A stretch of 47,308 nt of DNA from Moorena sp. SS36440bin_2. Lineage in GTDB: Bacteria > Cyanobacteriota > Cyanobacteriia > Cyanobacteriales > Coleofasciculaceae. Positions 1,986 to 47,045 of this stretch are shown here, in pieces (position 1 is the stretch's first letter; each line of letters starts with the position of its first letter). The notes under the pieces were generated by a model, which had not been told where the DNA came from, ran no database searches, and saw only the letters and a program-made list of their open reading frames with translations. The stretch spans positions 1 through 47,308 of the forward strand of contig WTKN01000342.1 in assembly GCA_011524395.1 (NCBI GenBank), in the 5' to 3' direction. The position numbers and the translations under genes were made by a program.

Positions 1986-2037
1986 ATAAAGTTGTCCTTC
2001 ATTAATCATCCATGCTTTTATATTTAATCAGCAAACC

Positions 2038-15719: not shown

Positions 15720-16144
15720 TTCATTTGAGACAGAGAATCAATTTCATATTTAGTCAGCACAATAGAGACTTGGGCATCCTTGACAAAAGCTTAAAGTCTA
15801 GGCAGAGTTCGCTTCAACTGAATTGCATCAGGCGGGGGAGCTAGTATCGCAATGACTCCTGCATATAAACATCCAAAGAAAGCAAAAATGAAATCCAGAC
15901 CCTGAGAATAGAGCAGCAATGCTCGCTCCCCCTTAGCTATCTCCATTGTCTCAAGTTTAGCAGCGATCGCCCGTGCCCTCCTTTCCAATTCTCCATAAGT
16001 CAAAATGTTTGCTTCTGTTTGTCCATTAAAAAGAAACGTATAGGCTTTTTTGTTACCTTCATTCGTTGCTCGATAACGTAGGAGATCTATCAAAGATAAA
16101 AATTTATTGTTAGTTTTCATAAAAGTTGTCCTTCATTAATCATC
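15720..16144 (-). pseudogene. Broken 5' fragment of the FAAL gene
   Basis: Codons 1-109 of the complete FAAL at 168-1985 are repeated here with 7 amino-acid differences in 109, including the same ribosome site and about 25 bp of leader. An in-frame TAA at 15791-15793 replaces the Gln codon after TLPRL. Recognisable FAAL sequence continues past that stop (AFVKDAQVSIVLTK) and fades near 15720. Only the N-terminal 20 percent of the enzyme is present, so it cannot adenylate. It sits just after the BAHD-like gene and before the N-methylating NRPS, on the same strand as its parent. Together the two copies form direct repeats around the second assembly line. The left boundary is approximate because the last ~30 bp align only with small gaps. 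Confidence 0.9.
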
Positions 16145-16206: not shown

Positions 16207-17466
16207 TCAATAGGTTTCAATAACGATCTCTTCCACACCAATATCTCTTAATTTATTTTTGACTTGGGATACAACATTTTTCAAGTTAAAATACATCAAG
16301 AAATATTTAGTTTTTGTCAATCTATATACTAGGGCATTTCTACAGGGAAATGATGATAGATCGAAAGGTTTATCGTCAAACTCAAAATTCTTTTGAATAA
16401 CGACCTCGTTTTCACCAAAACTTGGTAATTTTTGTAATTTAATCCAACTATTTATTATTAAAAATTCACTATTAAAAACTGGTAAAAAACTATATAGTCC
16501 GCGAAGCTCATTTATGGTTTTTCTAACATCAGAATGTTTTAACATATAGTTATTTTCTGGTTTAGTTAAACCTGATACTATAGTTTCAGCATTTCCTAAA
16601 TAATTTTCTGGTATATCGAATTTTCTATATCTTAGATTGATAACAATTATAAATTGTTTGATAGGAGTAACTGATAAAAATTCCAATAAAGCATCATTTC
16701 TGCTGTACACAGTTTCGCCATCATACATTTTTTGAGTTGTTTGCTTAATTAAATCTAAATTTTCCTTTGTCAAGATACACTTAATACAACTCCAATCACT
16801 TTTTTTTATGAACAAATATCTCAAAATATAAGCAAAGATAAATGTCGGACTTAACAGTTTTTCGGTCCATGACCTTTCTTTCAATCTAGCATTGAGAAAA
16901 TTATCTATTTTGTTAAAATTTACTGTCCATAGTGGTTCAGACTTAGAAACATAATCTGGGTCTCCATAAGCTTTAGCTAAATGTTCTAACAATTGGAAAT
17001 ACGTTCCACCACCAACTATCAAATGATTTACCAGTAAAGTTATGCCACTATAAGTTTGATTATAATTCAAAATTAAATAAATTAATGGAGCATCTGTATT
17101 GATAGCATCTACACTTTTTTCTGGAATCTTGAAAACATTGTTTAGATAGGTTTTTGCCTCTAATAAGTTATCAAGATTTATCTCCTGCTTACCTAGATCG
17201 ACTTCAATAAAACCAATACCATGTTTTTTAGCTTGACAGACAACCTTTATGGGACTAAACAATTTCTTTACCAATCTCCCTCCTAAAATTGGTACGCTAT
17301 CAACTATTTGTTGACATGCTTTTTTCAGTCTGCGAGCATCAATTCTATTTTGGTACCAACTGATCGTCCCATAATAAGGACTAAACTTTCCAGCTGTGAT
17401 ATCAAAATTTGAAAGCTTATACTCACAATCTACAGTGCTATTCGTTATTAATTCTAGGTTTTCCAT
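16207..17466 (-). CDS. BAHD-like acyltransferase (condensation-fold transferase family)
   Basis: 419 residues related to the transferase family PF02458 (BAHD), which move an acyl group from a thioester, usually acyl-CoA, to a hydroxyl or amine. The expected HxxxD motif appears as NHLIVGGGTYF, with His148 present and the usual Asp replaced by Gly152; the second family motif (DFGWG) is not evident. In BAHD enzymes the His is the base and the Asp is mainly structural, so activity is possible but not assured. The gene starts 8 bp after the P450 stop and has no strong ribosome site, so it is probably read through from the P450. Candidate roles are O-acylation of the macrocycle (acetyl or the statine side chain) or tailoring of the side chain. 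The family call is moderate because overall similarity is low; the role is inference. Confidence 0.7.
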   Translation of the reverse strand: MENLELITNSTVDCEYKLSNFDITAGKFSPYYGTISWYQNRIDARRLKKACQQIVDSVPILGGRLVKKLFSPIKVVCQAKKHGIGFIEVDLGKQEINLDNLLEAKTYLNNVFKIPEKSVDAINTDAPLIYLILNYNQTYSGITLLVNHLIVGGGTYFQLLEHLAKAYGDPDYVSKSEPLWTVNFNKIDNFLNARLKERSWTEKLLSPTFIFAYILRYLFIKKSDWSCIKCILTKENLDLIKQTTQKMYDGETVYSRNDALLEFLSVTPIKQFIIVINLRYRKFDIPENYLGNAETIVSGLTKPENNYMLKHSDVRKTINELRGLYSFLPVFNSEFLIINSWIKLQKLPSFGENEVVIQKNFEFDDKPFDLSSFPCRNALVYRLTKTKYFLMYFNLKNVVSQVKNKLRDIGVEEIVIETY

Positions 17467-17474
17467 AATAGCTG

Positions 17475-18806
17475 TTAGGCAGGAATCATATACATTGGAG
17501 AAGGTGCAACAGTAAAGGCGCTACGTACAGGCTTGATAACACGGTTATCAGGTAGGGCTAGTTTTAGGTTAGTGAGAATTGTCCCCAGGATTAATTTCAT
17601 TTCAAACAAAGACAACGCATATCCAATACACCGACGGCTTCCGCCACCAAAAGCCACAAATTCATAAGCTGAAAACTGTCGGTCTAAAAAACGCTCTGGT
17701 CTAAAATGATTCGGTTCTGGATATAAATCTTCTTGCCTGTGGGTCAAATATATACAAGGTAAAATGTATGTACCTGGCTCAAAGTGGTAGCCCATAATTT
17801 CTATAGGCTTTTGGGCAATACGATACGCACCCAAAATGGTAGGTGGGTATATACGTAGGGTCTCGTGACAGACTGCATTCAAATATGGAAGCTTAGTAAT
17901 CGCACTTGAATCTGGATTATCGCCAAGAGTGTCTAACTCAGCCATAAGCTTCTCATAGACTTGTGGTAAGCAGTGAATCCAGTACAATGCCCAGGTTATA
18001 CTCATGGAGGTTGTTTCATGACCTCCTAGTAACAATATCATTAAATCGTCACGCAATTCCACCTCTTTCATCGGCTCGCCTTGATCGTTGCGAGCTTTCA
18101 TCATTAAGCTCAGGATATCTTCACCTAATAAAGCTGGATTATCCTGACGTCGCTTAATTTCAGCATAAATTATGTCATCAACCTGCTGGCGAAGGCGTAC
18201 AAAACGTCCCCATAAACTCCAAGGCCCCCAATCTTGCTGTAGGGCATGGAAGTACAAAACAGTAGAAGTCAAAGGACTACTCATCAAATTCAGAAGTGAA
18301 ATAAATATTTGGTTAAGCTGTTGGAAGCGAGCTTCTTCATTTACCCCAAAAATAGCACGTATAATAAATTGCAGTGAAATATCTTGCATCGAACCCTGGA
18401 CGTGAAACTGTTCTCCTTTTTTCCACTGCGTCATTTGTTGCTTAGTAATGTCACAAATTAACTGACTATAAGCTCGCATCCGCTCACCATGAAAAGCAGG
18501 CATTAACATTTTTTTTCGATGTTTGTGAAGATCGCCATCTAACAATGGTAGTGCATTTTTCCCTGAAAAAGCGGTTGGTAACTCTTTCATAGCTTCCCCT
18601 GTATTAAATGTTTGTGGGTTGGCTGTAAATATCGTCTTCATAGCTTGGGGATGACTGACAAACACCGTTGGAGGATAGTTCAAAAAACGTATTGTAAACA
18701 TATCTCCATAGCGTTTAGCACAATCCTCTAAGTAATTGAGAGGATTAACAATGATATTAATAGACTGTAGTAATGCTGGTGTTTTTGGCCCATCAGGAAA
18801 TTTCAT
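17475..18806 (-). CDS. Cytochrome P450, CYP110-like
   Basis: 443 residues with all P450 hallmarks: the I-helix oxygen-activating LLLGGHETTS near 258, the K-helix ExxR in HETLR, a PERF segment, and the heme loop FGGGSRRCIG with the axial cysteine at about 393. The opening (MKFPDGPKTPALLQ) and overall pattern resemble the cyanobacterial CYP110 family, which often oxidises fatty-acyl or terpenoid substrates. No membrane anchor is evident. AGGAG lies 8 bases before the ATG. The cluster has one P450 where, as I recall, the hectochlorin cluster has two. Since only one keto-acid-derived hydroxyisovalerate unit is predicted here, a natural role is beta-hydroxylation of that unit to dihydroxyisovalerate. 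This assignment is inference. Confidence 0.93.
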   Translation of the reverse strand: MKFPDGPKTPALLQSINIIVNPLNYLEDCAKRYGDMFTIRFLNYPPTVFVSHPQAMKTIFTANPQTFNTGEAMKELPTAFSGKNALPLLDGDLHKHRKKMLMPAFHGERMRAYSQLICDITKQQMTQWKKGEQFHVQGSMQDISLQFIIRAIFGVNEEARFQQLNQIFISLLNLMSSPLTSTVLYFHALQQDWGPWSLWGRFVRLRQQVDDIIYAEIKRRQDNPALLGEDILSLMMKARNDQGEPMKEVELRDDLMILLLGGHETTSMSITWALYWIHCLPQVYEKLMAELDTLGDNPDSSAITKLPYLNAVCHETLRIYPPTILGAYRIAQKPIEIMGYHFEPGTYILPCIYLTHRQEDLYPEPNHFRPERFLDRQFSAYEFVAFGGGSRRCIGYALSLFEMKLILGTILTNLKLALPDNRVIKPVRSAFTVAPSPMYMIPA

Positions 18807-18916: not shown

Positions 18917-21900
18917 CTACGGACGACCCATAGGGTTAGCTGTTTGTGCTTTTTCTAAGGAGGATTTTAACTTTTCGGCTAGAGCACCAATGTATGGCTC
19001 TGTCATAATTGTCAGATGGTCTCCTGGAACAGAATGCAGTTCTACTTCTCCAGCAGAAAACTCACTCCAGCCCCACATTGGATCGTTTTTTCTATTGTCG
19101 TAGAGGAGCCTATAAATATCCACACTAGGAGCAAGTTCTATTGGCACTTCCTCACTAGCGCGAAAGAGAGTAACCTGAGTTGGATAAACCTCCTGTGGAA
19201 CGTAGCAAGCATTTTGATTTGCTCTAGCCACTTGAATAAGACCGCGAATTTGCTTAACTCCAGTTTCGGGAGGGAAAAGATTGACCTTCTGAAATTGCTC
19301 GTTAACATAATTTAATTGGTCATCAAAAGTCAGCTGTTGGAGAAACTCGTATGATACATCAATGTTTTTTCCAAACATACGCTCAAATATGCTAGCAATG
19401 CTAGTCAGCATTTTTGCACTATTCCAATCTATATCTGGCTTATGGCTGCCAGAACCCAATTTATCTGTATCCGGTGCATGCATATCTAGAACAGCGAGTA
19501 GAGCTATCTCATCCCCCTGCTTTTGTAATTGCTGGGCGACTTCAAAAGCCACTAATCCACCAAAGGAATGCCCCCCTAAAAAGTATGGACCTTTCGGTTG
19601 AATGGACTTTATTAATTCAATGTAGTGCGCTGCTAGGTCTTCGACTCGCGTGAAAGGTTCTGATTCTCCATCAAGACCAACAGCTTGCAACGCATAGAAC
19701 GGTTGCTCTTGACCTAAATAGCAAGACAAATGATAAAAGTAAAGAACATTACCGCCTCCTCCGGCTATGCAGAAAAAGGGAGGCTTAGAACCATAAGTTT
19801 GAATTGGTACTAGCGAAGACCAGGAAATATACTCTTGTTCCTCCCGGAGAACCGTTGCCAGTTTTTCAATGGTCTGACCTTGAAATAAAGTTGCTAAGGA
19901 TAAATTTCGTTGAAACCGATATTCAATTTGAGCCATCAAGCGAATAGCAACAATAGAATCGCCCCCAATGTCAAAAAAGTTACTTTGGACTCCCACTGGG
20001 AAAACATTAAGAACCTCTGACCAAATTTGGGTGAGCTTTAGCTCTACAAGATCCCGAGGAGCAATAAAGGTTTCTTCATCCAGGTCTTGGAGATTATCAG
20101 GGATAGGGAGAGCGCGACGGTCAATCTTACCATTTGCAGACAACGGTAGAGAATCGAGTAACATTAGCTTGCTTGGGAGCATATAGTCGGGCAGGTGTAA
20201 TTGTAGATGCTTGCGCAGCTGAGAAACCGTATCAGAATGACTGGATGATTTTGGAGGAGAGACTGAAGAGGTTAGCCACTGTTGAGCTTGGGCTGGCTCG
20301 ATCTTTCCACCTACAAAGCTATAAAGTAGCATTTGATGGGATTCTAGCTTAAACAAATGGCTTAACTGTTGGAAATCTAAATTACCGATCGGACACAAAC
20401 CAATACCAAACTCAGGAGCAGTAGTCATCAACAACTGCCCAATATGCCCTGCCTCCAGCAAGCAAAATCTTTCTGCTAATTCCCCATACATAGGCGTGAT
20501 AGCATCAAGTTTGGCAATCAAAAACAATGAAAAAGCAGCTTCTTCAACAAGTGACTGATTCCCTCCATAAATGTTATCTCCTTCAGCATTAGTTAGATTA
20601 CTGATAAAAACTAAGCGGTGTTGTCGAGGACAATAATAATAAATACCTGCTTCAACTCCAGTTAAACGCTCAGACTTGATCATCAGATAACTCTGAACTG
20701 GATAAAGATTACCTGCTGAAGGATAAAGATATTTCGGCAGCGGTTTATCCGCTAAACTTAACTGACGCAAGCAGCTTAAAAACTGACTAAACTCTTTCAA
20801 CTCCAATGGTTGCAGTTGAAACTGTCGATAACTTTGACGATGGAAGTAAGCTTGGGTCAGAGCTTCTTCATCAATATCCAAAGGCAAATCTATACCCTTA
20901 TTCGTTGATTCCAGTTTCCTTAGACCATGTTGCTTGAGCTTAAACTCAATTCGTTCAACTGGGTCAAAGATTATCCCCTCTTTTTCACTAGGATGATAGG
21001 CTTCGGGCAACTTTGGTTGCATCTCTGAGGGCACAATATAAGCTACGATCTTTTTCCTATCGATTGAGTCTCCGATCGCATTCACCACAGCCTTCTTCAC
21101 TAATGAATTCCGCATTAGTGTTGCTTCAATTTCTCCTAACTCAATTCGATAACCATTAATTTTTACCTGAAAATCTTCCCTCCCAAGGAACTCAATATTT
21201 CCATCAGGTAAATAGCGTCCTAAATCTCCTGTTTTATATAATTGCTCCTGGGTCAGAGGATGACGAATAAAGTGCTTGGCTGTTTTTTCCTCATCTTTCC
21301 AGTAGCCTCGTGCCAATCCTAGTCCACCTATATAAATCTGGCCTGGAACCCACACCGGAGCAGGTTCCATCCATTGATTCAGGACATGTATCGTTTGATT
21401 GCCAAGGGGTTTCCCGTAAGGAATACTCCGCCAGTTAGAGTCAACTTCTCCTATCGGATAATAAATCGACCAAATTGAAGCTTCTGTTGCTCCACCTAGG
21501 CTAACTAATTCTATATCTGTCCATGTAGCTTTGATTTGCTGCGGCAAATTCAACGGTATCCAATCACCCGATAACAAAGCCAGTCGTAGTGAATGATGCG
21601 GTTGTGTGGATTGGGCTGAAGTGTACTCCACTAACATCTGCATCAGTGCTGGCACTGAGTTCCAAACCGTTACCTGGTGGGCGTTGATTAACCAGAGCCA
21701 ATGTGCGGGATCTTTAGCTTTTGCTGCAGTTGGTATAACAATTGTCCCTCCCGCTGCTAATGTGCCGAAAATGTCATACACGGACAGGTCGAAATTTAGA
21801 GCAGAGACTGCTAGAACTCGGTCATCAGCGGTAACACTAAAGCGCTGATTGATGTCGATAATTGTATTAACCGCTCCTTGATGGTCAATCATCACACCCT

Positions 21901-24900
21901 TAGGGATGCCCGTCGAACCAGAGGTATAGATGATATAAGCTAAATCCTCAGGCTGGTGCAATATTTCTAAGGTTTTCTGCACTTCTATGTGAGGGTTATA
22001 CTCAACATGTACACACTCAATTTCTTCTGGCCACGAAAGACTTTGGTACAGTGCCTCTTGAGTGACAACCAACTGGATTTGTGCTTGTGTTAGAAGCGAC
22101 CATTGACGTTGTTGTGGCAACCCTGGATCGATAGGTACATAGGTGCAACCAGCCATCAATACTCCCAACACGGCAACAATCTGTTCCCATCCCTTGCTCA
22201 TAACTACAGCAATGTGGGTGCCAGTAGTTGCGCCCAGAGACCGCAACTGATGTCCTAGTTTGACAGCATGTTGGTATAGCTGTTCGTAAGTTAGGCATAA
22301 TTCTGGTGCGATCGCAGCAAGTGATCCTCCCCGTTGTTTCACCTGTTGCACAAACAAATTATCCAATGTCTGCTGAGACGTTACGGTCTGAACCCGATCG
22401 ACTTGGTTTAGTTGTTGTATAACGTCTAGTTGCTGTGCTGGAAGTAGAGAAGGATATTTTTCCATCCAAATTGTTTCGTCAGTAGCCAATTGCTTGAGGT
22501 AATTGCAATAGCTATTAAACATGTCATCTAGGAGGTTAGCAGGGAATAGTTCTTCGATAACATCCCAGTTGAATAACAAAGCCCCTTCTTCTTCTCTGAG
22601 TTGATGGTCAAGCCAAACTTGTGGGGTTTGAGTGATGCAATAGACCATTTCACCCAAATGGTTAGCCAACCAATTTTGCTCAGATATATTACTAAATCCT
22701 AGAGTACTCGTGAAAACAACCCCCATGGCTTGATAAGTGCCTCGTTGACGTCGTAGCTCTCGCTGCACTTCAACACCACTGACATAGCTATGGTCTAAAT
22801 CCTCCCACAATCTTCCCTGTAGGCGTTGGGCACGCTCAACAAAGGTAGCCGCTACAGAGTTATCAACCTCTAGCAGGGTGAGGGATGTGAAGTCACCAAC
22901 AATCTGATTTACTTGGGGATGCAAAGGTAGACGATTAAACAGTGTAAGATTGATGGTAAAGTGAGGGGCCTTACTCCAATAGCTTAAGACATCGCTAAAA
23001 GCTGCTAGCAAAATTCCAGAAGCCGTCAAATTAATTTCATGAGCTTTGCTTTTCAATCTTTGCCAGTCTCGAGCTGCAAGCTCAGCACTAAATCGTTTGA
23101 ATCGAGGTTTTTTAAGAGCAGAGGGTAGTTGGACAAGAGGTAGTTCTGGTGCTGAAGGGAGTGTAGCAATTCGGTCCGACCAATATTTTTGACAGTTTTG
23201 GTAGTGCGATGTTTCTTTAAGTCTCAGGTCTGCAAGTATATAATCGCGGAATGATAGGTCTACCTTAGGAAGCTCTGTCTGTGGATTAAAATAAATTTCT
23301 ACCCATTGTTGCTCCAGTATCATTAGACTCCATACGTCTGCAATTAAGGCATCAAAACTAAAATGCAAACGATAACGATCGCCATCTAGCTTTGTAGCGC
23401 AAATCTTAAACAAAGGCCAAGAGTCAGCATCAAAAACTTCATGAGACATTTGCTGTCGAGTGGTCTCTAAATGAGCATTAATACTGTCTTTTGAATGCCC
23501 GTCCAAATCAAATACTTCAATTTGGTAATCTGGAACGTGAGGTAAAATCTGTTGCTGGCCATCAGACAGTACTACCATTCTTAACATCTCATGGTGGTTG
23601 ATGATTCGCTGCCAAGCTTGAGAGAGATGATCCAGATCAAGATTTTTACAATCAAATTCAATATAGGTATGGGTCGATATGTTTCCTAGTTCAAAAGCAT
23701 CCTGGCGTCCCAACCAATAAGCTTGTTGTATTTCTGTAAGAGGGAAAGGCTCGTGCAGCTCCGATGGTGAAGCAATAGCTATGGGAAAATCGAAATTTAA
23801 TGGTCTCGATTCAGATAATGTTTCTTGATTTAATTGTTTTTCTTTTATAGTTTGGTCAAGTTTTGCTACTGTTGGCGATTCAAAGATTGTCCGTAAGGGA
23901 AGTTCTAACTCAAACGCTTCTCTAAGTTTGGCAATTAATTGGGTTGCGAGTAGGGAATGTCCTCCCAATTCAAAGAAGTTATCATTGATACCCACCTGCT
24001 CGAGCTTCAGGACATCTCTCCAAATCCCAGCTATCATTTCTTCACCTTGGTTGCGAGGGGCAACAAAAACTCCTTTTAACTCTGGTCGCTCTTTCTGCTT
24101 GCGCTCCTCAATTACTTTGAGCACCTGGACGGCCTGACGTAGTTCTGTGGCAATTCTTTCATATCGCCCAGATTTTACTTGGTACTGCACAATAGTGCTA
24201 ACGTCTTTCTGGGTTGGTAATTTCTTGGTGGCGATCCCGTTAAACTGGCCTGGTGAGAAAGTCAACTCTTTTATCCCATCTACCTTAAATTTGAATAGGA
24301 AACCCTCACCTTTACTCTCCTTACCTTCCCTGCTAACACTTTCGAGGAAATCAAGTGCTGGCTTATTTTTTTGAGTAGGAATATACGGAACGTCAACATG
24401 AATAAGCCCGCGATCGCTAGCAATATCTCCTAACTTGGCAAGCATCTGATGCTCAACGCCCCTGCCTAACACCCGACAGCTTAGTAAAAAGCTGTCCACT
24501 CTCAAAACATCAGCACCCAACTCAAACATCAGTAGTCCGACCAAACCATAATCGCCAAAGCGATCCTTTACCTCTACTACCAAACACTCTTGCTTTTCTA
24601 ATGCACAGAATTCTTTAACATCCCCTTCAGAGCGCCTAATAGTTGTCAGATTGAATTGATTCGTTCGCTGTGTTAGCTGCGCTACCCTAGGGAGTTGATG
24701 GAGTTGGGGGGGATCGATCTTCACCCGCAATTCCAGTCCGTCAAGAAACTCCTCAAAGGTGAGTGACTCATGACGCACTTTCTCTCGCTCTACATTCTGG
24801 CGATAATAATCTGTCCGTGCTGCATCTTCAGCCGTCACCTTTAACTGGTCGAAAGCCCAAATATGCTTGATAAAATCAGGAATCTGCCTGCTATCAGTAG

Positions 24901-27508
24901 GTAATTGAATGGTTAATACTTCTGGACAATTAGCTTGGACTTCCGCACACTCAATTGGGTTGTCATCAATAAAGATAAAGCTGTCCAGTCCCAGTTGCAG
25001 CTCTTGGGCTAAAGCTTTCAAATTCTCCGACTTAGATTTCCAGTTAATACGCCAGGAAACCAGATCTTCCTTTCTTAAAGGCATTGAATCATGGTGTTCA
25101 AATACAGCCCATACATCTACCTCTTGATTCTTACTACACAGACAGATTAGTTTTCCTGCCCTTTGCTGGGTTACTATGAATTCCTGCAGGGCTTGGTGAG
25201 GAGCATCTATTTCCACTCCTGCTGCTCCATCCTCCCCACAAACACCTTTCCACAAAGTCTCGTCGCAGTCGAGGACTATCACTTTGTAGGGAATACTCTT
25301 GAGAGCATGGATTTTCCGAGCAAGCATCGACCCCAGACCGCTGAAGAAAGTTGGCTTATAGGGGATGTGACCGAGCTCGTCTCCATGAGGGTCGTAATAA
25401 TCTGAAACTGGATAAAGAGAAACCAATTCTGAGCTTTTTACCAAATAAATGCTACTTAGCTCCTCAAGATAAGAAGCCAAAAAGTTTTCCATCCTCAGAT
25501 AAAGAGCTATATCCTCTGATTCGGCAGTAGTTGATGGAGGACAGATACAGACCAAGTAAGGCGTTGACGAATCTCTAGCTGCAGTCTTCAGAGCACTAGC
25601 AATATCTCTGACATTTTGCTCAATCTGTTCTATTTTTTTATCGGGTTGTTCCTGAACTGTCAGAATACCCTCCTTGCCAGCACCGTTACCATTAAGTTGC
25701 GAGGTTTTTTGGTTTCTCAGCCAATCCTCAAAACGGACTAAGACAATATTAATGCCATCTTGATTAGTAGCAATAAGGCTGACTGGATTAAGCAGTTCCT
25801 GGAATACCTGATTGTAAGGGGCAAATTGAATCTCAGAGGGCAAATCTAGTTCTTCCATCCAAAAGGTGAGAGATTCCTCAACTGGCTCTGCAGTAAAGGT
25901 TGATGCAATTGCAATCTTTTGCTTTTTATCTCTTGCCTTGGCTGCTTTAGCTTTAACCTCAAGTTCTGCCGATAGCTCAAAGTCAGATAGCTTTGAATCT
26001 AACTGCTGCACCAACCTCTCTAGGGTCCCTTGATAACCCTCGACTAGCTGTTTAATTGTATCGCTCTCAAACAGGTCAGTATTGTACTCGCAATCAATAC
26101 GCATTTTTTCTGAAGACTCAAGAATTACAAATCTTAAATCCAAAAGTGAAGATTCAAGATCGATATCTATAGGAGTAGCTTCAAGATTTTCATTAAAAAA
26201 TCCTTTTAAAGGAAAATTCTGCAATAGGAGAGCAACATTATAAATTGGGTTGTGATTCAGCTGGCGGTCAGGATTAAGTGCTTCTATTATTTTCTGGAAG
26301 GGACAATCCTGATTAGAGTAAGCTTCGACAACTTTTTTTCCGACTTGTTGCAGGAATTCCTCTGCTCTTTGTTGACCATTTAAATGGTTACGCACAGCCA
26401 AGAAATTTATAAAGCAACCAATGAGCGGTTCAAGCTCGGAGCGATTTCGGCCAGCAATTACTGTACCAAGAACAATATCACTTTGTCCTGTCCACTTGAA
26501 CAGGAGGATCTTGAGAGCGGTCACCAGAATAGCAAATAGAGTCACGCCTTGACTTTGGGCCAGGGCATTAAGGGAAGTAACGATAGATTTGGAGAGAATA
26601 ACTGAATGTTGAGCACCTCGGAAAGTATGAACTGAGGAACGAGGGTGGTCAGTGGGTAATTCTAATAAATCTGGCGCACCATCCAATTGCTTCCGCCAGT
26701 AATTGAGTTGAGTTTCTAGAACCCCTCCATTCAACCACTGTCTTTGCCACATAGCAAAATCAACATACTGAATTGGTAATTTTGCCAAGGGGGATGGTTC
26801 TCCCTGAGTAAAAGCTCGATATAAGCTAGACAGTTCTTGGATAAATATTCCTATTGACCAAGCATCAGAAATGATGTGGTGCATTGTTAGGGAAAATACA
26901 TATTCTGTCCCATCTAACTGCCATAAACGGCATCTGATTAATGGTGCTCTTTCCAGGTTAAACGGCTTAGTTATTTCTTGTTGTATTTGTTGCTGGAGTA
27001 CCGTTTCCCGTTCTTTAACTTCTATTTCCTGTAAGTCCACTATCTTGAGGTTTAAGGTGGCTTTCGGATCGATGACCTGTATTGGCGTGCCATTAACAGT
27101 TTGGAAACTGGTACGTAGAACTTCGTGGCGACGGACTATGTCTGATAATGCTTGTTCTAGGGCATTAAGGTTCAAGTTACCGCTGATGCGGAGCACTCCT
27201 GGCGAGTTGTAAGCAACAGTTGACCCTTCAAGTTGGTTGATGAACCAGAGTCTTTCTTGAGCAAAAGAGAGCGGTAAGTTTTCATCTCTAGGGATAACCG
27301 AAATGGCTGGAAGATTTTTATGTTCTTCTTGTCTGACCTGTTGCAAATACTCCAATATTTCTGGTTTGCGTTCAGCTATCTGCTGTGACAGTGCAGCTGT
27401 TAACACACCTTCAGGAGCTTGACAGCGTAATTTTTCTCCGTTAGATGAAACTTGAACATTTAGTTTACGCAGTTGAGAAAGGAACTTGACAATTGTTTGA
27501 TTCTTCAT
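18917..27508 (-). CDS. NRPS C-FkbH-PCP-Cy-A(Cys)/Ox-PCP-TE
   Basis: 2863 residues from the ATG at 27508, which overlaps the upstream stop as ATGA and follows GAGGAGATAG. Order: TubC-type docking (1-60); C with HHIISDAWS (~212); an FkbH-type HAD domain with LDCDETLWKGVCGEDG (~753) and FIDDNPIECAEV; PCP (NFFELGGHSLL, ~1179); heterocyclisation domain with FDALIADVWS in place of HHxxxDG (~1389); A domain with code D-L-Y-N-L-S-L-I-W-K, a cysteine code; SagB/nitroreductase-type oxidase inside the A domain (~2170-2405, YLYPSAGNLYPVQ); PCP (NFFDIGGDSI, ~2516); TE (GGHSFGG, ~2643; PGDHLTIM, ~2833). FkbH domains load a glyceryl unit from 1,3-bisphosphoglycerate onto a carrier. The protein should therefore join a glycerate-type hydroxy acid by an ester, add cysteine as a thiazole, and release or cyclise the product. 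There is no adenylation or KR domain in the first module. Confidence 0.95.
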   Translation of the reverse strand: MKNQTIVKFLSQLRKLNVQVSSNGEKLRCQAPEGVLTAALSQQIAERKPEILEYLQQVRQEEHKNLPAISVIPRDENLPLSFAQERLWFINQLEGSTVAYNSPGVLRISGNLNLNALEQALSDIVRRHEVLRTSFQTVNGTPIQVIDPKATLNLKIVDLQEIEVKERETVLQQQIQQEITKPFNLERAPLIRCRLWQLDGTEYVFSLTMHHIISDAWSIGIFIQELSSLYRAFTQGEPSPLAKLPIQYVDFAMWQRQWLNGGVLETQLNYWRKQLDGAPDLLELPTDHPRSSVHTFRGAQHSVILSKSIVTSLNALAQSQGVTLFAILVTALKILLFKWTGQSDIVLGTVIAGRNRSELEPLIGCFINFLAVRNHLNGQQRAEEFLQQVGKKVVEAYSNQDCPFQKIIEALNPDRQLNHNPIYNVALLLQNFPLKGFFNENLEATPIDIDLESSLLDLRFVILESSEKMRIDCEYNTDLFESDTIKQLVEGYQGTLERLVQQLDSKLSDFELSAELEVKAKAAKARDKKQKIAIASTFTAEPVEESLTFWMEELDLPSEIQFAPYNQVFQELLNPVSLIATNQDGINIVLVRFEDWLRNQKTSQLNGNGAGKEGILTVQEQPDKKIEQIEQNVRDIASALKTAARDSSTPYLVCICPPSTTAESEDIALYLRMENFLASYLEELSSIYLVKSSELVSLYPVSDYYDPHGDELGHIPYKPTFFSGLGSMLARKIHALKSIPYKVIVLDCDETLWKGVCGEDGAAGVEIDAPHQALQEFIVTQQRAGKLICLCSKNQEVDVWAVFEHHDSMPLRKEDLVSWRINWKSKSENLKALAQELQLGLDSFIFIDDNPIECAEVQANCPEVLTIQLPTDSRQIPDFIKHIWAFDQLKVTAEDAARTDYYRQNVEREKVRHESLTFEEFLDGLELRVKIDPPQLHQLPRVAQLTQRTNQFNLTTIRRSEGDVKEFCALEKQECLVVEVKDRFGDYGLVGLLMFELGADVLRVDSFLLSCRVLGRGVEHQMLAKLGDIASDRGLIHVDVPYIPTQKNKPALDFLESVSREGKESKGEGFLFKFKVDGIKELTFSPGQFNGIATKKLPTQKDVSTIVQYQVKSGRYERIATELRQAVQVLKVIEERKQKERPELKGVFVAPRNQGEEMIAGIWRDVLKLEQVGINDNFFELGGHSLLATQLIAKLREAFELELPLRTIFESPTVAKLDQTIKEKQLNQETLSESRPLNFDFPIAIASPSELHEPFPLTEIQQAYWLGRQDAFELGNISTHTYIEFDCKNLDLDHLSQAWQRIINHHEMLRMVVLSDGQQQILPHVPDYQIEVFDLDGHSKDSINAHLETTRQQMSHEVFDADSWPLFKICATKLDGDRYRLHFSFDALIADVWSLMILEQQWVEIYFNPQTELPKVDLSFRDYILADLRLKETSHYQNCQKYWSDRIATLPSAPELPLVQLPSALKKPRFKRFSAELAARDWQRLKSKAHEINLTASGILLAAFSDVLSYWSKAPHFTINLTLFNRLPLHPQVNQIVGDFTSLTLLEVDNSVAATFVERAQRLQGRLWEDLDHSYVSGVEVQRELRRQRGTYQAMGVVFTSTLGFSNISEQNWLANHLGEMVYCITQTPQVWLDHQLREEEGALLFNWDVIEELFPANLLDDMFNSYCNYLKQLATDETIWMEKYPSLLPAQQLDVIQQLNQVDRVQTVTSQQTLDNLFVQQVKQRGGSLAAIAPELCLTYEQLYQHAVKLGHQLRSLGATTGTHIAVVMSKGWEQIVAVLGVLMAGCTYVPIDPGLPQQRQWSLLTQAQIQLVVTQEALYQSLSWPEEIECVHVEYNPHIEVQKTLEILHQPEDLAYIIYTSGSTGIPKGVMIDHQGAVNTIIDINQRFSVTADDRVLAVSALNFDLSVYDIFGTLAAGGTIVIPTAAKAKDPAHWLWLINAHQVTVWNSVPALMQMLVEYTSAQSTQPHHSLRLALLSGDWIPLNLPQQIKATWTDIELVSLGGATEASIWSIYYPIGEVDSNWRSIPYGKPLGNQTIHVLNQWMEPAPVWVPGQIYIGGLGLARGYWKDEEKTAKHFIRHPLTQEQLYKTGDLGRYLPDGNIEFLGREDFQVKINGYRIELGEIEATLMRNSLVKKAVVNAIGDSIDRKKIVAYIVPSEMQPKLPEAYHPSEKEGIIFDPVERIEFKLKQHGLRKLESTNKGIDLPLDIDEEALTQAYFHRQSYRQFQLQPLELKEFSQFLSCLRQLSLADKPLPKYLYPSAGNLYPVQSYLMIKSERLTGVEAGIYYYCPRQHRLVFISNLTNAEGDNIYGGNQSLVEEAAFSLFLIAKLDAITPMYGELAERFCLLEAGHIGQLLMTTAPEFGIGLCPIGNLDFQQLSHLFKLESHQMLLYSFVGGKIEPAQAQQWLTSSVSPPKSSSHSDTVSQLRKHLQLHLPDYMLPSKLMLLDSLPLSANGKIDRRALPIPDNLQDLDEETFIAPRDLVELKLTQIWSEVLNVFPVGVQSNFFDIGGDSIVAIRLMAQIEYRFQRNLSLATLFQGQTIEKLATVLREEQEYISWSSLVPIQTYGSKPPFFCIAGGGGNVLYFYHLSCYLGQEQPFYALQAVGLDGESEPFTRVEDLAAHYIELIKSIQPKGPYFLGGHSFGGLVAFEVAQQLQKQGDEIALLAVLDMHAPDTDKLGSGSHKPDIDWNSAKMLTSIASIFERMFGKNIDVSYEFLQQLTFDDQLNYVNEQFQKVNLFPPETGVKQIRGLIQVARANQNACYVPQEVYPTQVTLFRASEEVPIELAPSVDIYRLLYDNRKNDPMWGWSEFSAGEVELHSVPGDHLTIMTEPYIGALAEKLKSSLEKAQTANPMGRP

Positions 27509-30500
27509 AATTCTATCTCCTCTATATTTGTTTCTGAATCTTGTATATCTTGTCCCACCCAACTAAGAACTTCAATGTGTTCAACCAAACCAGCAATTGT
27601 CGGTTCTGCAAAGAAGTCAGACAGAGGTAGATCGACTTGGCAAAATTGTCGAATTCTGGAGATTAGCTGAGTAGCCAGTAAGGAATTGCCACCAATGTCA
27701 AAGAAATTATCATTAACACTGACTTGATTTACTTCTAACTCTAATATTGTTGCCCAAATGCCAGCTAACTTCTCTTCAATAGGAGTACTGGGGGGTAGAA
27801 AAATTCTTTCTTGTACTAATATCTCAGGGGCAGGTAGAGCTTTGCGGTTAACTTTGCCATTTGCAGTTAAAGGGAAGGCATCCATTAACACATAATCATT
27901 GGGGAGCATATACTGGGGTAATTTTCCTTGTAAATGCTCTTGTAGTTGTTGTGGAATAGATCGCTCGTCCTTTGAAGATTTACCGAACAACTGTTTGGTT
28001 TGAACTGGGTCAATCTTGCCTCCAAGAAAACTATAAATTAGATGTTGATTCGATTCCAACTCAAATAAATCTCGTAGCTTGTCAAACTCAAGACCGCCAA
28101 TTGGACAAAGTCCCATCTGGTAGTTTGGTGCTGTATTCATTAATAGTTGCCCCATGTGCCCTGCCTCGAGGAAACAGAAATTTTCAGCTAGTTCCCCATA
28201 CATCGGAGTAATGGCACTAAGTTTGCTAATCAAAAAGAGGGAAAACGCAGACTGCTCAAAAATCGGTTGATTGCCACCGTAAATCTTGCTGTCAACATCG
28301 CTCAAAGGATTGAGAAATACTAAATTATGCTCCCGAGGACAATAGTAATAAATACCTCCTGACAATCCCGAAACCCGTTCTGGCTTAATTAATAAATATG
28401 TTTGTACGGGATAAAGATTTCCTGCAGAAGGATAAAGATATTTGGGTAATGGATAATCGTCCAGTTTCATTTGCAGCAGACAGCTTAAAAACTGGCTAAA
28501 CTCCTCTAAAGGAAGGGGTTGCATCAAGAATTGTCGATAACTCTGACGTTTGAGGTAAGCTTCTTTTTGAGCATCATCAAGTTCTGATAGCGGTAAAGAA
28601 ATAGTTTCTTTTGTGGGAGATGGAGAACGCAATCCTGGTTGCTTGAGTTTAAATTCAATTTTCTCCACAGGGTCTTGTATTACCCCTGTTGTTTGACTAG
28701 GTTTATAACCTTCCGGTAGCTTGGCTTTGTCAACAGAGGTCTCACTGGGGACAACATAAGCGACTAAACGTTTGTGTTCCGACTCACCAAGGGCCATAAC
28801 AACAGTATCCTTGACAGTAGAATGCTCGCTTAATGCTGCCTCAATTTCACCCAATTCAACCCGATAGCCATTGATTTTAACTTGGAAATCTGAGCGACCG
28901 AGAAATTCAATATTACCATCAGGCAAATATCGTCCCAAATCACCGGTTTTGTACAATCGTTCGTGAGTAACTGGGTGAGTGATAAAACTTGCGTTTGTCT
29001 TTTTCTCATCTAATAAATACCCAGAAGCTAAACCAACGCCTCCGATATAAAGATCTCCACATACCCAGACTGGAGTAGGCTGCATTATATCATTGAGGAC
29101 AGAAACAGTTTGATTGGCAAGGGATTTACCGTAAGGAATGCTCTTAGTTAGAGGGGAAATTTGTTCGATCGGATAATAAATTGACCAAATTGAGGCTTCT
29201 GTTGCACCACCTAAGCTAACAATTTGGATCTGGCTCCACAAATCTTTAATTTGCTCTGGTAACGTTAGTGGTATCCAATCGCCACTGAGCAATGCTAATC
29301 GTAGGGGACCATGGGACTGGTCAATCTGCCCAGACAAGTACTCAACTAACATTTGCATTAGTGCGGGTACAGAGTTCCACAATGTAACTTGGTGTTTAAC
29401 AATTAACTGGTACCAACGAGCAGGATCTTTAGCATCAATAGGAGATGGGATGACTACAGTTCCTCCAACAGCTAGGATACCAAAAATGTCATATACCGAT
29501 AGATCAAAATTCAACGCGGATACAGCTAGTATTCGGTCATTAGCTGTAACATTGAATCGCTGGTTGATGTCGAGGATGGTGTTTACTACTGCTTGATGCT
29601 TAATGATCACCCCTTTGGGTAAACCTGTAGAGCCAGACGTATAAATTACATAGGCTAAATCTTCTGGATGATGTACGGGGACGAAGGATATTGAATCATT
29701 TTTTCTTGACTCGAAAGTATCTACAGACAAACACTCAATTCCCTCTGGTATTGTTAGTTGTTCTAACAGAGATTCTTGGGTCAGAACCACCTTCACTTCC
29801 CCTTGGGTCAGTAAAAATTCTCTTCGCTCCTGGGGGAGTTCGGGGTCAATAGGCACATAAGCCGCACCAGCCATCAAGATTGCCAAGACTGCAACAACTT
29901 GTTCCCATCCCTTGAACATCATTACGGCGACTAAGCTATTGCGCGAAGCTCCCAGTTGTTGCAACCAATGCCCGATGTTGCGGGCGCGTTGGTGTAAGTC
30001 TCCATAGGTTAAGCAGCGCTCTGGGGTAATCACTGCCAATTCTTGATAATTTTGTTCCACCTGCTGCAGAAACAGACCGTGTAAGGTTTGTTGGGGAACA
30101 GGTAGATTTATCTGATTGAGTTGTGCAAGTTGTTGGAGTTGGGCTTTTGGTAACAGTTGAGGATAGAAGTCCATCCAAGCAGATTCTGAGGTTGCCAGGT
30201 GTTGGAGATAATCTGTGTAACTCTGGAACATATTATCAATAACACCTTCACAGAAAAGCTCTTCAACTATATCCCACTGAAATATTAATTCCCCTTGTTC
30301 TTCAAGCACTTGATGGTCTAGCCAGACTTGAGGGGTTTGGCTAATGCTATAGACCATTTTTCCTAGCTTATTAACCCACAATTGTTCTTCCGACTCGATA
30401 CCAGCCCCCAGAACGCTGGTAAAGACAACCCCCATAGCTTGATAACTTCCATAGAGGCGACGCAATTCTCGCTGCACTTCCACACCACTGACATAACGGT

Positions 30501-33500
30501 GGTCTAAATCTTGCCACAGTTGTTTCTGTAGCTGTTGAGCACGCTTAATAAAAGGAGTCGGTTTTGAGTTATCAACTTCTAGGAGCGTGAGGGATGTGAA
30601 ATCTCCAATCACCTCATTAACTTGGGGATGTAAGGGTAGGCGATTAAACAGGGTCAGGTTAATGGTAAACTTAGAACTCTTGCTCCAACACGTTAAGATG
30701 TCAGCAAAAGCAGCTAATAAAACAGTAGAATTAGTTATATTTGCCTGACTTGCCTTGTCTTTTAATCGCTGCCAATCAACAACATTTAATCGCCCACTGC
30801 GACGTGTAAACTGCGGTTGCTCTAGAGCAACTATCTGCTTGGCAAAGGGTAATTCTGGTGCTGGCGGGAGAGTGGACAAGCGATTGAACCAGTAATCTTG
30901 AGAACGCTGATACTGTGGTGTAACATCCAGCCCTATTTTAGCCAGTACATAGTCGCGAAATGACAGTTCCAATGAAGGCAGGGAACTTTCTGGGTCTCGA
31001 TACAGTTGCAGCCAATACTGCCCCAGTACCATTAGGCTCCAGCTATCAGCAATTAAAGCATCAAAACTCAGATGGAGGCGATAGTGCTTTTGATTGAAGT
31101 GAGTGGCCTGCAACTTGAACAATGGCCATTGCTCAGAGGGTAATATTTCGTGAGACATTTGCTCCCGAATTGCCTTGAGGTGGTCACTAACTGCTGGTTC
31201 TGGCTGGTTTTGTAAATCAAAAACTTGTATTTGATAGGGTGGTACTTGTTGTTTGACTTGCTGTTGTCCGTCGGGTAACACTACAGCTCGCAGCATATCA
31301 TAGTGGTCAACTAATTTCTGCCAAGCCTGGTTTAAGCGTTCTATATCTAAGTTTTCAGAATCGATCTCTATGTAAATATGGCTAGCAACATTACCTAAAT
31401 CAAACGCTTGATTGCGACCTAGCCAATAAGCTTGTTGAATATCAGTTAGAGGGAATGGTTCGTAGCGTTGTTCTGGGTCAGGTACAAGGGTTGGTAAACT
31501 AGTATCTGATTTTTGCCCTGGTAAGAGATTTTCTTTGATTATGGTTTGCCCCAGTTCACCAACTGTAGGTGCTTGAAACAGTATATGCAGAGAAACCTCT
31601 TGATTAAACGTTTGCTGTATACGAGAAACCACTTGCACTGCTAGCAGAGAATTTCCGCCCAGAGCAAAGAAATTGTCATGGATACTAGTAACAGGCACTT
31701 CTAGTACCTGCTGAAAAATTTCAACGAGTTGATGTTCTACTTGGTTGCGTGGTTTTGTTTGTTCAAAAAGACCAATACCTGTGCTAAGTCCAATCAGCTT
31801 TTCTCGAACAATTTCTCCAGTTTCAGTTAGAGGCATCTCGGCAAGTTGTGCCCACAGACAACGGCTGAGTCTGCCAAAGCGATCGCGTACTTCCAACGCT
31901 TCTAAATTATTCACTGGTAATTGTTCGACCTTGGAGGTGAAATAAGCCGTTAACTGCTGTCGGTTTTGAGGTTCTGAGGTAATAGTTAAACGTTCAATGT
32001 TGGGTTTACTCCCATCCAAACCCACAAACAAATGACGTTGGCCACGAGACAACGCGGCTAATAAAGAGCACATCCCTTGTGCCTTATTAATCGAAAAGTA
32101 GCCTTTAGCATGGGTCAAGTCTTTCATTTGATAGCCCAGACTCATGCCGATTTCATCCCACATACTCCATGATAAGCAGTAGCTTTGCAGGCTAGTATAG
32201 GTCTGCTGGTAATCGCAAAACGCTTCCATAAAACTAGAGGCAGCAGCATAAGCACCTACAGTGGTACCGCCAAAGAAGCCATTGATGGAAGAAAAATGAA
32301 GAAACAAACCTTGAGGATTATCTTCCAGCAGTAGTTTATGTAAGGCCCAAGTCCCAAGGAATTTGGGACGAAGAACGGCAGTGAGACTTTCTAGGGTTTG
32401 GGATACTAATAGTTGTTCAGTGAAAATTCCTGCCAGATGGATAATCCCATCAAGCTGACCTCCCCATTTGGATAGAGTTGTTGTCAATAGCTGCTGCAAC
32501 TGAGCATAATCACAGATATCTACATCTTCATAAATGACTGCCCCTGGTAGTTGCTGCAATTGTTGATAAGCTTGGATTTTCCTTGCCAGTGCATTTCCAC
32601 TATCTAAATGAGTTTGCCAAGTATTTTGATCGGGTAGAGAAGTGCGACCAACTATCAGCAACCGTGCTTGATACTTCTTAAGTAGGAAACTAGCAATTTC
32701 AGTACCAATACCTCCCAGCCCTCCACTTATTAAGTAGATACCACCTGTTATGAAGGGTAATTCTTGCTTTAGTTCTTCAGCTAGATTTACAGATTCGATT
32801 CCACAAACCAAGCGTTTTCCGTCTCTGTAGGCTACTTCTGTTTCTTTGGCAAAATTGTCCAGTTCTTGCCGAATGTATGCCTTATTGACTTGAACCTCTA
32901 GTACTGGCAGATCGATGTGGCGACAGTTCAACCAGGTCATTTCTTGACCAATTGTTTTCAATAGGCCCAAAACTGTCCCTTTCTCATAGGCTATCTTATC
33001 ACTCGGTACTATCGACTGACTGTAACTTGATACCCACAGTAATTGTACTGACTGCTCTTCACTCCTAGATTGTTCTAATGCTTTAACTAAGAACAGCAAA
33101 CGAAACAACCCTTGCTTTTGTGACTGCTCCAGCCCTTCTAGGTGAGCAATTTCTCCTCTATATTGATCGTATTCCCACAAGCAGACAATCTGGCCAATCG
33201 TTTTGTTTTCTTGTGCCAATTGCTCTAAAAGCATCTGATAGTGTTCTGCTCGGTCGGGCACAAGAGAATAATGATTGTCACTGATTTTGGTAAAGTTTTC
33301 ACCGACAGACACTTGGATAGAGGGCTGGTGATGTTTTTCTAATTCCTCAGATAAGACTGTTCCTAGCCCTAAAGCATCACTAAATATTAAGGTTGTAGTT
33401 ATCTGGGAAGACAGATTAAAAACAGGTACTTTGGGTTGCCAGACCTTTCGGTAAAACCAGCTTGGGATAGTATTGACATTCAATAGTAACAAATCTACCC

Positions 33501-36500
33501 GTTTGAGAATGGTGTTAAATTCACCAGATTCAAAACGCTGTTTTAGTTGAGAACGTTGAATTTTACCGATCGCTGTTTTAGGAATAACGTCTCGTTCTAC
33601 AGGAATCAAATAATCAGGATTAATCCCAAAACGATCCACTACCAGTAAGCGAATTTCCTTTAACAAATTTGCTTCTTGATCGTTTGTTGTTTTTGCTGGA
33701 TTGAAAAATATGGCTAGTTTGTCTGTATCACTGTCACCATCCCTCACTGCACAAGCAGCAGTATAAGACACTTCTACACCTTGTATTTCTTCTATTGTGG
33801 CTTCAATTTCATGGCTGTAGTAGTTGAGACCGTTGATGATGATAATGTCTTTTTGCCGTCCGGTTATTGTTAAACACCCTTGTTGCAGGAAGCCTATATC
33901 TCCAGTATTAAACCAACCATCTTCTGTAAAAGCCTCTTGGTTTGCCTCTGTATTTTGATAGTAACCCAATGTAATAGGCGGTCCTTTTAGTTGTACTCGA
34001 CCCGCCATTGTCTCTTTGACTATCTGGTTTTGATTGTCTACTATTCTGATGGTAACTCCTGGCACTGGGGCACCAACCTCAACAAATTTCTGATTGTCTG
34101 TAGTTGAGGAAAACGAAAATTTGGATGAAAACACTACCCCACTTGATGTTTCTGACATTCCCCACGATGGATGCATGGCGCGTTCAGGGAGCTGGTAGTC
34201 CCTTAATAGCTCTAAAAATCGTCGGCCTGTTTTGGCAACAATTGCTTCCCCTCCATTAAGAATAAAGTGCATGGAGGATAAATCCCATGTAGGGTGAGCT
34301 TTTTCTTTACTGTCTGTCTTTTGTCGATTTTCTAGTTCATCTACAATTAACCCATAGGCAAAGTTTGGTGCCCAGGTAATCGTGGCTCGATAGTGGGATA
34401 TCCAATCTAACCATCGTGTCGGCTGTTGTAACACCATTTCTGTAGGAGCCTGAATTTGCTGACATCCCAAGTAAACGTTTCTGAGATGGAACATAACGAG
34501 GCCCCCAACATGGTCGAGGCTAAACCAATTTAAGGAAATATCGTCTTTGCTAAAGCTATTGGTCTGAACTGTTGCAGCACTACGGCTTAACAAACTGCAG
34601 TGGTTGTGCATTACTGCTTTGGGCATACCTGTACTGCCAGAGGTTAGCAGTAATAGTACCAAATCTTCTGATTTTGCATCATGCCAATTGCGGTCTACCT
34701 CTGATTTTTTTAAGGGTTCTATGAGTTCTATCTGAAAGTTTTCTAAATTTAATTCTTCTGCCCAATGATGAAGTTTTGGAGCTAACTTACGATCTGATAG
34801 TACCAAAGGTTTTTCTAGGAGCTGCCAGCTATTTTGCAACTTGTTTAAGCTGCTCGTTGCGGAAATCGGTACGGGTATAAATCCTCCAATGATGCATCCC
34901 CAAAAAGCAGTAACAAAGTCTAGATTTTCTGATAATTGAAAAATGACTTTGTCTTGGGGCTTTAGACCGAGTTTTCTTAACCCCCCCAATAGTCTTTGGG
35001 CGTCCTCTAATAATTTTTTATAGGACTGTACGATCTCAGTGCCATCGGGTTGGATGTATACTAGACCTTTAGTCGGATTATCTAAAGCTGCTCGTTGCAG
35101 TATTCCCCCTAAAGTTTGTGCCTTTAGGTCTATTAAAGACTCTCCTTTGCTGATAGCTAGCTGGTTTACTTCCTCCTGTGGCAAGTTCTTTTTATCTTTT
35201 TCTATTAAGTTATCAGTTTCAACTTGAGGAGAATCTGTACCCATTCCCTTTGGGGGCGAGGGTACTAAATCAGAAATATGTAATCTGGGAAGGGTTTTTA
35301 CTTGTGGCTGAACTACCACTGCTACTTGCTCTATTTCTGGTAGCGATCGCAACTGTTCTTCCCAACGTGACACTAACTCGGAGTCAATCACCTCTAATTG
35401 GGCTAACGCTGATTCATCTATTAGTCCTTTGCCTGTTAAGGGCAGGTTAGATACTGGTACATAGGCACTTGGCAGCATATAGCTGGGTAATTCGGTCTTT
35501 AACTGGTTGTGGAGAGACTCTGACAAGAAAGATTTAGAGGTTACTACATAAGCAACTAGTTGTCTTTGTCGCATCATCACATAGCAGTCTTCCACCCCAG
35601 TAATTGCCAGTAAGGCTTTTTCTATAGCCTGCAACTCCACCCGATGCCCTTTAATCCAAGCCCAACGTTGCCCAAATCCTTGCAATTCCAGACAACCATT
35701 GGCACGAAGACAACCCCGTTCCCCAGTTTTCAATAAACTACCAAGTTCGGGATGCTCTACAAAACTAACTGGGGCTTGTTGGGTCCGATTTATGTCACTC
35801 TCAGTTAAATTGCCACCTCTAACATAAACCTCTCCTGTTACTCCTGGAGGTACTGGTTCTCCATAGGAATCTAAAACATAAACTGAAAAATCAGTTGGCC
35901 AACCCACAGGCACTACTTCTGTATAGTCTCCCAACTGAGTTTGCTTGCCACTAACCTCTCCTGAATAACCAAATAAATCCTCAAACAATTGATAGATAAA
36001 TTTATTCTGCCCCTGTTTTCTCCCCAAGTTATTTCCGAGTGCTAGGCACTGCTGCCGCTCAGTTGCTGTTAGTAATGGGAATTGAGCTATGTTATAATTT
36101 TGCTTTGTTACTATTGCTTGTAATAACGTCTGGAAATGCTCCACCATTCTGGCAATAGTCTTTTCTTCAAATAGATCGGTGCTGTACCTAATAAGTCCAC
36201 CCAGGGACGAACCGACCTGTATCATTTCTAGTATGAAATCAAATTGACACTCCTTCGTTGGTCTGTCAAAGGCTTCTAACTTAAGTCCTTGCCAATCCGA
36301 AGACGTCTTCATTTCGCCAGAGAGCAGCTTTCGCCATTCAGACATTTGCTGTAGCAGGAAAAAAACTTGAAAAATTGGAGATCGGCTAGGGTCGCGCTTT
36401 GGCAGCAATCGCTCTACTAACAATGGGAAAGGGTAATCTTGATAGTTTACCGCTTCTAATACAGTATGCTGAACTTTAGTGATAAATTCCTTAAAACTTA

Positions 36501-46875: not shown

Positions 46876-46997
46876 CCCATGATTTCCTGCTTTACTCTGT
46901 AGACAATTGGAGATTTTACCTCCACACAAACTATAGTTTTTTTTGATCAGATCAACAAGGGTTCTACTGTCAATTTTGATAACACTTTTATTCCTGA

Positions 46998-47045
46998 GTT
47001 GACGGTTGACTGTTAAGTGTTTGCTGTCCACAAACAACCGTCAAC
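46998..47045. repeat. 11-bp inverted repeat upstream of dnaE-C
   Basis: GTTGACGGTTG (46998-47008) and CAACCGTCAAC (47035-47045) pair perfectly with a 26-base loop. ACAAACAACC also repeats directly (47030-47039, 47051-47060). It lies between the small ORF stop and the dnaE-C start, so it may end the first transcript or fold in the dnaE leader. Confidence 0.55.

Follow-up and report, generated by a model that had tools for sequence, protein, structure and literature searches.

The contig WTKN01000342.1 of Moorena sp. SS36440bin_2 (assembly GCA_011524395.1) was analysed over its entire length of 47,308 bases, hereafter called the window; the genome comprises 7.75 Mb and is 99.87% complete. The window carries a biosynthetic line of the hectochlorin/lyngbyabellin type, made of polyketide synthase (PKS) and nonribosomal peptide synthetase (NRPS) modules, and a second, shorter line, referred to as the side line. 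In this work we focused on one NRPS module of the core line, in which an FkbH domain is found. All cluster genes lie on the minus strand and are closely spaced, as follows.

43368-44771, minus strand: halogenase-ACBP-ACP protein, a PhyH-type Fe/oxoglutarate enzyme (PF05721, PF00887, PF00550)
37575-43349, minus strand: PKS1, KS-AT-cMT-KR-ACP (domain matches)
27505-37578, minus strand: first NRPS, TubC_N, C-A-KR-PCP (putative hydroxyisovalerate module) and Cy-A(Cys code)-Ox-PCP (putative thiazole module) (domains, code)
18917-27508, minus strand: NRPS with TubC_N and C-FkbH-PCP-Cy-A(Cys code)-Ox-PCP-TE (domains, code, TIGR01686)
25961-27280, minus strand: C domain (HHIISDA), taken as the former of the glycerate ester (domain match, motif)
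24326-25285, with an N-terminal part to about 25942, minus strand: FkbH domain of the glyceryl transferase/phosphatase type (TIGR01686, motif alignment)
23858-24034, minus strand: PCP of the FkbH module (GGHSL; domain match, motif)
22472-23746, minus strand: Cy domain (domain match)
18965-19780, minus strand: terminal TE (GHSFG; domain match, motif)
17475-18806, minus strand: cytochrome P450, candidate beta-hydroxylase of hydroxyisovalerate (PF00067)
16207-17466, minus strand: orf419, weakly similar to HxxxD acyltransferases, with HLIVG as its motif (profile searches, alignment)
15791-16120, minus strand: 5' remnant (109 amino acids) of a fatty-acyl-AMP ligase (FAAL) gene (domain match, nucleotide comparison)
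10943-15622, minus strand: side-line NRPS, TubC_N, C-A(DAFFLGVTFK, Val/Ile)-nMT-PCP (domains, code)
7467-10946, minus strand: side-line NRPS, TubC_N, C-A(DAWFLGNVVK, Leu)-PCP (domains, code)
2038-7452, minus strand: side-line PKS2, KS-AT-KR-ACP-TE (domains, motifs)
168-2009, minus strand: FAAL-like gene, complete (top NCBIfam hits to fatty-acyl-AMP ligases, every hit shown scoring below cut-off)

The C-FkbH-PCP module is encoded at 23858-27508 on the minus strand and is followed by Cy-A-Ox-PCP-TE. The listed open reading frame (18917-27562) opens at TTG, and the ATG at 27508 agrees with the end of the module as given in an earlier note on this DNA. That note had read the second hydroxy-acid module as C-FkbH-PCP with intact HAD (DCDETLW) and FIDDNP motifs, and both claims were confirmed. 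The FkbH region (amino acids 760-1079) matched TIGR01686 with an E value of 6.5e-92 and 308.1 bits, well beyond the curated cut-off of 146.65, and the motifs DCDETLW, CSKN and FIDDNP are all present. The residues D765, D767, T769, S810, K811, K844, D866, D867 and C1029, the last in the C-terminal part of the domain, are invariant in an alignment of 20 rows, of which two are the window itself (the second one refetched) and 18 are other sequences. The Ox domain of the same protein is of the nitroreductase type.

A chance match or a misread frame is ruled out by the profile score, by a reading frame open across 2881 codons and by a 97% identical copy of the C-FkbH-PCP stretch in another genome of the genus (G001). 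A keto-acid A-KR hidden in the FkbH module was ruled out as well; Pfam gives a single AMP-binding stretch in the protein (amino acids 1739-2088, past Cy), and no KR was found there at E 0.001. The ratio of nonsynonymous to synonymous substitution rates (dN/dS) of the C-FkbH-PCP stretch against G001 is 0.27, close to those of its neighbours (halogenase 0.23, PKS1 0.28, first NRPS 0.22, P450 0.25, TE 0.36; the FAAL row, with two stops from loose boundaries, was left out of this set). A tree built from 14 C and Cy domains places the C domain of the FkbH module together with that of the FkbH module of another genome, G042 (support 0.970).

The core line as a whole runs halogenase-ACBP-ACP, KS-AT-MT-KR-ACP, C-A-KR-PCP-Cy-A-Ox-PCP, C-FkbH-PCP-Cy-A-Ox-PCP-TE, and this domain order bears out the hectochlorin logic proposed earlier. 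The start of such a line (FAAL, halogenase-ACP and KS-AT-MT-KR-ACP) is present, with the FAAL and the halogenase below NCBIfam cut-offs, and so is the series of hydroxy acid, thiazole, second unit, thiazole and TE. The halogenase scored 131.4 bits against TIGR01762, under the curated cut-off of 226.3. Among 291 genomes of the order, seven gave a halogenase match passing E 1e-60, three of them at 97-100% identity (the window's own genome, G001 and G002, the latter two copies being 97-98% identical) and the remaining four at 43-52%, one with a stop. The halogenase motif WHQVYD has no Asp two residues past the His, which presumably agrees with Fe/oxoglutarate halogenases. The A domains of both Cy modules carry the code DLYNLSLIWK, which we take to be that for Cys. 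The window contains a single P450 gene and a single hydroxyisovalerate module.

Downstream of the core TE the order is P450, orf419, the FAAL remnant, C-A-nMT-PCP, C-A-PCP, KS-AT-KR-ACP-TE and the complete FAAL-like gene. The motifs of the side line (KS TACSTS, ACP GGDSL, TE GTSLG, nMT EIGCGTG) were read directly. Its two A-domain codes are DAFFLGVTFK and DAWFLGNVVK, which we assume to stand for Val/Ile and Leu, respectively.

In NRPS FkbH modules, D-1,3-bisphosphoglycerate is loaded and dephosphorylated to a PCP-bound glyceryl unit, which an ester-forming C domain joins to the chain (PMC8949500). Modules described as loading this substrate occur in the vioprolide and cystomanamide lines, where, as in the window, FkbH replaces the A domain with an ester-forming C domain ahead of it (PMC8949500); in those lines the fatty acyl chain and the glycerate stand near the peptide start, whereas the glycerate of the window would lie between two thiazoles. 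By analogy, the FkbH module should deliver a glycerate ester unit. The hectochlorin cluster likewise has a starter enzyme resembling FAAL, a halogenase/ACP protein, a single PKS module, a pair of bimodular hydroxy-acid/thiazole NRPS and P450, but its second hydroxy-acid module is a keto-acid A-KR, and it has two P450 genes and two hydroxyisovalerate modules (PMC3252866). Compared with that description, the window has C-FkbH-PCP for the second A-KR, one P450 instead of two, and an added side line. The window, whose contig is cut on the left, thus lacks the second keto-acid A-KR of hectochlorin proper and has only one of its two P450 genes.

Gene and domain order, intact motifs and A-domain codes were observed directly, and the assembly of the product, with all its substrates, is predicted to proceed as follows. 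The FAAL would load a short-chain fatty acid, which in the hectochlorin model is hexanoate, onto the ACP of the halogenase protein, where the halogenase would dichlorinate it, and PKS1 would extend it to a 7,7-dichloro-3-hydroxy-2-methyloctanoyl chain. The next NRPS would add 2-hydroxyisovalerate via an ester, and then a thiazole. FkbH would take in D-1,3-bisphosphoglycerate, remove the phosphate and pass D-glycerate to the PCP, and the preceding C domain would link the chain to one of the hydroxyls of the glycerate. Cysteine would be added by the last module and turned into the second thiazole, and the TE would close the ring. The side line would make an N-methylated Val/Ile-Leu-statine acid, which would become an ester side chain; its attachment, as well as the hydroxyl that bears each ester, is likewise deduced.

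The order of units predicted for the core is that of lyngbyabellin M: dichloro acid, hydroxyisovalerate, thiazole, glycerate, thiazole, with 14R configuration (PMC4483630). In the synthesis of lyngbyabellin M, thiazole A was made from L-cysteine ethyl ester and (R)-isopropylidene glyceraldehyde, which gives a 2-(1,2-dihydroxyethyl)thiazole, and this glycerate-derived thiazole was esterified with the acid of a hydroxyisovaleryl thiazole bearing the dichloro acid (PMC4483630). Lyngbyabellin M is the open form of lyngbyabellin K, whose 14R assignment rests on X-ray data (PMC4483630), and by our own reading of the priorities 14R fits the D-glycerate expected from FkbH. Lyngbyabellins K and M share with the core predicted for the window the order of units, including a glycerate-derived thiazole, and 14R. 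The earlier note had expected a glycerate-derived ester where the family has dihydroxyisovalerate. FkbH does replace the A-KR of hectochlorin and the rule does give glycerate, but lyngbyabellin M already contains this unit, in the same order and with the D/R configuration; the interpretation is right on the enzyme and wrong on the unit being new to the family. FkbH loading thus probably explains a three-carbon unit already known in lyngbyabellins, not a new chemical branch. The suggestion of an undescribed branch may hold for the genes, since no lyngbyabellin gene cluster was found in the searchable literature, which most subscription journals lie outside. The proposal that a free primary hydroxyl serves as acylation point appears doubtful. 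One of the two glycerate hydroxyls of lyngbyabellin M is in the backbone ester (PMC4483630), and because its synthesis couples the unprotected diol, we infer that this may well be the primary one.

The side line, which the earlier note had left out, extends the comparison to lyngbyabellin N, which ends in a dimethylated valine and contains a leucine statine, 14R being listed for lyngbyabellins E, H and N (PMC7345825); the leucine statine side chain is also named in PMC5450532. No word starting with 'glycer' occurs in the accessible passages of these two papers, and glycerate in E, H and N is read from formula and 14R only. The side-line modules (C-A-nMT-PCP, C-A(Leu code)-PCP, KS-AT-KR-ACP-TE) fit the dimethylvaline and leucine statine, and the window holds modules for hydroxyisovalerate, glycerate, two thiazoles, N-methylated Val (or Ile), Leu and one reduced ketide. 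We therefore consider it fairly likely that the window is the biosynthetic locus of a lyngbyabellin N-like compound, a reading favoured by the single P450 and single hydroxyisovalerate module, of which hectochlorin has two each.

The logic of the prediction was supported by a sister cluster in the same genus (G002). Applied to it, the same logic gave C29H40Cl2N4O7S2, and C29H40Cl2N4O6S2 without the P450 step, in exact agreement with the formulas printed for lyngbyabellin A and 27-deoxylyngbyabellin A, respectively (PMC7345825); the dimethylated chloro acid was entered here since lyngbyabellin A is described with one (PMC5702503). By module order, A-domain codes and formula the G002 cluster fits lyngbyabellin A.

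Several observations weigh against a lyngbyabellin N-like product, which is predicted from the genes. The predicted formula, C38H56Cl2N4O10S2, is poorer by one acetyl (C2H2O) than the printed formula of lyngbyabellin N, C40H58Cl2N4O11S2 (PMC7345825), and exchanging glycerate for a C5 dihydroxy acid, without acetyl, gives C40H60Cl2N4O10S2, which does not fit either. The core without side chain would have the formula C23H28Cl2N2O7S2. The only candidate acetyl gene in the window is orf419, in which HLIVG stands for the HxxxD retained by four aligned homologues (G001, G165, G284, G252); the missing acetyl is either a gap in our account or due to a gene past the contig end, which lies, on the left, only 167 bases beyond the last gene. 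The code DAFFLGVTFK, in our understanding, cannot separate Val from Ile. The first side-line module has a TubC_N docking domain and an intact C domain (HHIALDG), which count against the assignment because a dimethylvaline start needs neither. Finally, the optical rotation of lyngbyabellin M is positive for the synthetic and negative for the natural compound, a discrepancy left unexplained by the authors (PMC4483630).

Some of these points favour a product with the same glycerate core and an undescribed side chain, such as N-acyl-N-methyl-Val/Ile-Leu-statine or one with dimethylisoleucine for dimethylvaline. The intact C domain and TubC_N of the first side-line module could serve to take an acyl donor, this C domain is sister to that of the hydroxyisovalerate module in the tree of 14 domains (support 1.000), and the Val/Ile code fits both residues. 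However, no free donor protein for it was seen in the window, the C domain may simply have remained from a copying event and need not indicate a chain that starts with an acyl group, and lyngbyabellin N has the matching dimethylvaline-leucine-statine chain; such a side chain is in our view unlikely. Still less probable is that the two lines lie next to each other without being related, a K-like glycerate lyngbyabellin that bears no side chain coming from the core and a separate peptide from the side line. G001 has the front of the core, the FkbH module, P450, orf419 and FAAL, with the side line unmatched in the 60 kb read (and likewise in G002), and in the window the side line sits as if inserted between the complete FAAL and the FAAL remnant, which are 95.3% identical over 427 bases, an arrangement that looks like an insertion scar. 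Yet the two lines share strand and close spacing, and a side chain that fits the predicted acid is already known from just this core. FkbH domains that load lactate occur in bryostatin biosynthesis, and nothing in the window points there. It is very improbable that FkbH delivers lactate or another C3 acid, or is inactive and its module skipped, given that all aligned catalytic residues are kept, that dN/dS of the module is like that of its neighbours and that lyngbyabellin M has glycerate at this place (PMC4483630).

The locus, if correctly assigned, would account genetically for the three-carbon unit found in lyngbyabellins, allow its D/R configuration to be predicted from primary metabolism and explain why hectochlorin contains one hydroxyisovalerate more than they do.

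The clusters of G001 (contig C11) and G002 (contig C1) are sisters of the window's, with PKS1 and the first NRPS mostly at more than 90% protein identity, and differ from it by whole modules. In G002 (C1:2306526-2340842; loci L052, L053), FAAL, halogenase, PKS1 and first NRPS are followed by C-A(DILQLGLIWK, Gly code)-PCP, C-A(DAFFLGVTFK, Val/Ile code)-PCP, Cy-A-Ox-PCP-TE, P450 and a broken orf419. In G001 (C11:62861-70600; loci L032-L034) the front is as in the window, and the 97% identical C-FkbH-PCP leads to C-A(DILQLGLIWK, Gly code, read by eye from the sequence)-PCP-TE, with no second thiazole module; P450, an open orf419 with HxxxD and FAAL lie past the TE and a second FAAL upstream. No known product can be named for this line, in which the FkbH module is followed by a glycine module; assuming hydroxyisovalerate and a macrolactone, its product would have the formula C22H30Cl2N2O8S. 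Compared in bins of 600 bases, window positions 24000-26999 match G001 at 97.1-99.3% identity and have no match in G002, and positions 20400-23399 match G002 at 85.5-94.9% identity and have none in G001. This pattern, a G001-like FkbH stretch beside a G002-like terminal stretch, is read as a mosaic produced by module exchange. We tentatively propose, with more doubt than confidence, that species of one genus swap whole modules at carrier-domain borders (an FkbH cartridge, and a thiazole or glycine terminal cartridge), that in the window's lineage an imported side line took over the acylation by orf419, which is decaying, with the broken FAAL as a scar, and that G001 makes an undescribed chlorinated glycerate-glycine depsipeptide. 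If the assignment of the window holds, the three clusters would be a small natural example of modules being exchanged among members of a genus, with predictable products that can be checked by mass.

The earlier note had suggested searching cluster databases for the series C-FkbH-PCP-Cy-A-Ox-PCP-TE. In the genome stretches read it was found only in the window, the nearest form being that of G001. A search for FkbH in 57 genomes, including the window's own, gave, among the matches listed, 12 places outside the window in at least 10 genomes, and the layout was established for 11 of these (G004:C90 was left out). One is the sister line (G001:C11), eight have no C domain before FkbH on the stretch read and are apparently chain-starting, one (G042) has a C domain before FkbH with no domain matched past its PCP, and one (G011) is too short to judge. 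In a search of 386 genomes of the phylum, 24 passed E 1e-150, with both halves matched only in the window and in G139, where FkbH-PCP is followed by C-A modules; G001 lies outside this sample, since it would pass yet is not among the matches. FkbH was found in one of a set of 19 loci (L001), which gives the same matches as G018, so that the two look like one record. Eight places in related genomes (L063-L070) have FkbH-PCP without a C domain ahead, and L001, apparently the record of L063, shows two matches to the FkbH N-terminal region about 0.8 kb apart. Papers reportedly link FkbH with aeruginosins and suomilide.

The only acyltransferase-like gene of the window, orf419, was matched at E 0.001 in eight genomes when 291 of the order were searched, two of these matches lying close to the limit, and the copies in G284, G252 and G002 are interrupted. 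Profile searches gave gramicidin S synthase 1 (E 0.022) and, for the family, PF02458 in one of four members (E 0.013) and PF00668 in two of four (E 0.074), none of them significant by usual limits; a single-sequence structure prediction was of no use, with a mean pLDDT of 34.2. The stretches read around the homologues in G165 (40 kb), G284 (20 kb) and G252 (20 kb) gave no match to any further cluster domain. The dN/dS of orf419 against G001 is raised (0.51), and the gene may be an O-acyltransferase losing its function in the window, a weak inference from sequence comparison. That it attaches the side chain is doubtful, as the G001 copy is open and has HxxxD yet no side line accompanies it, and the copy of the window lacks the D.

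At 45523-47037 the window encodes a DnaE C-terminal part that includes the C-terminal splicing region of an intein (TIGR01443, 30.2 bits against a cut-off of 15.6), which we take to be the usual split intein arrangement.
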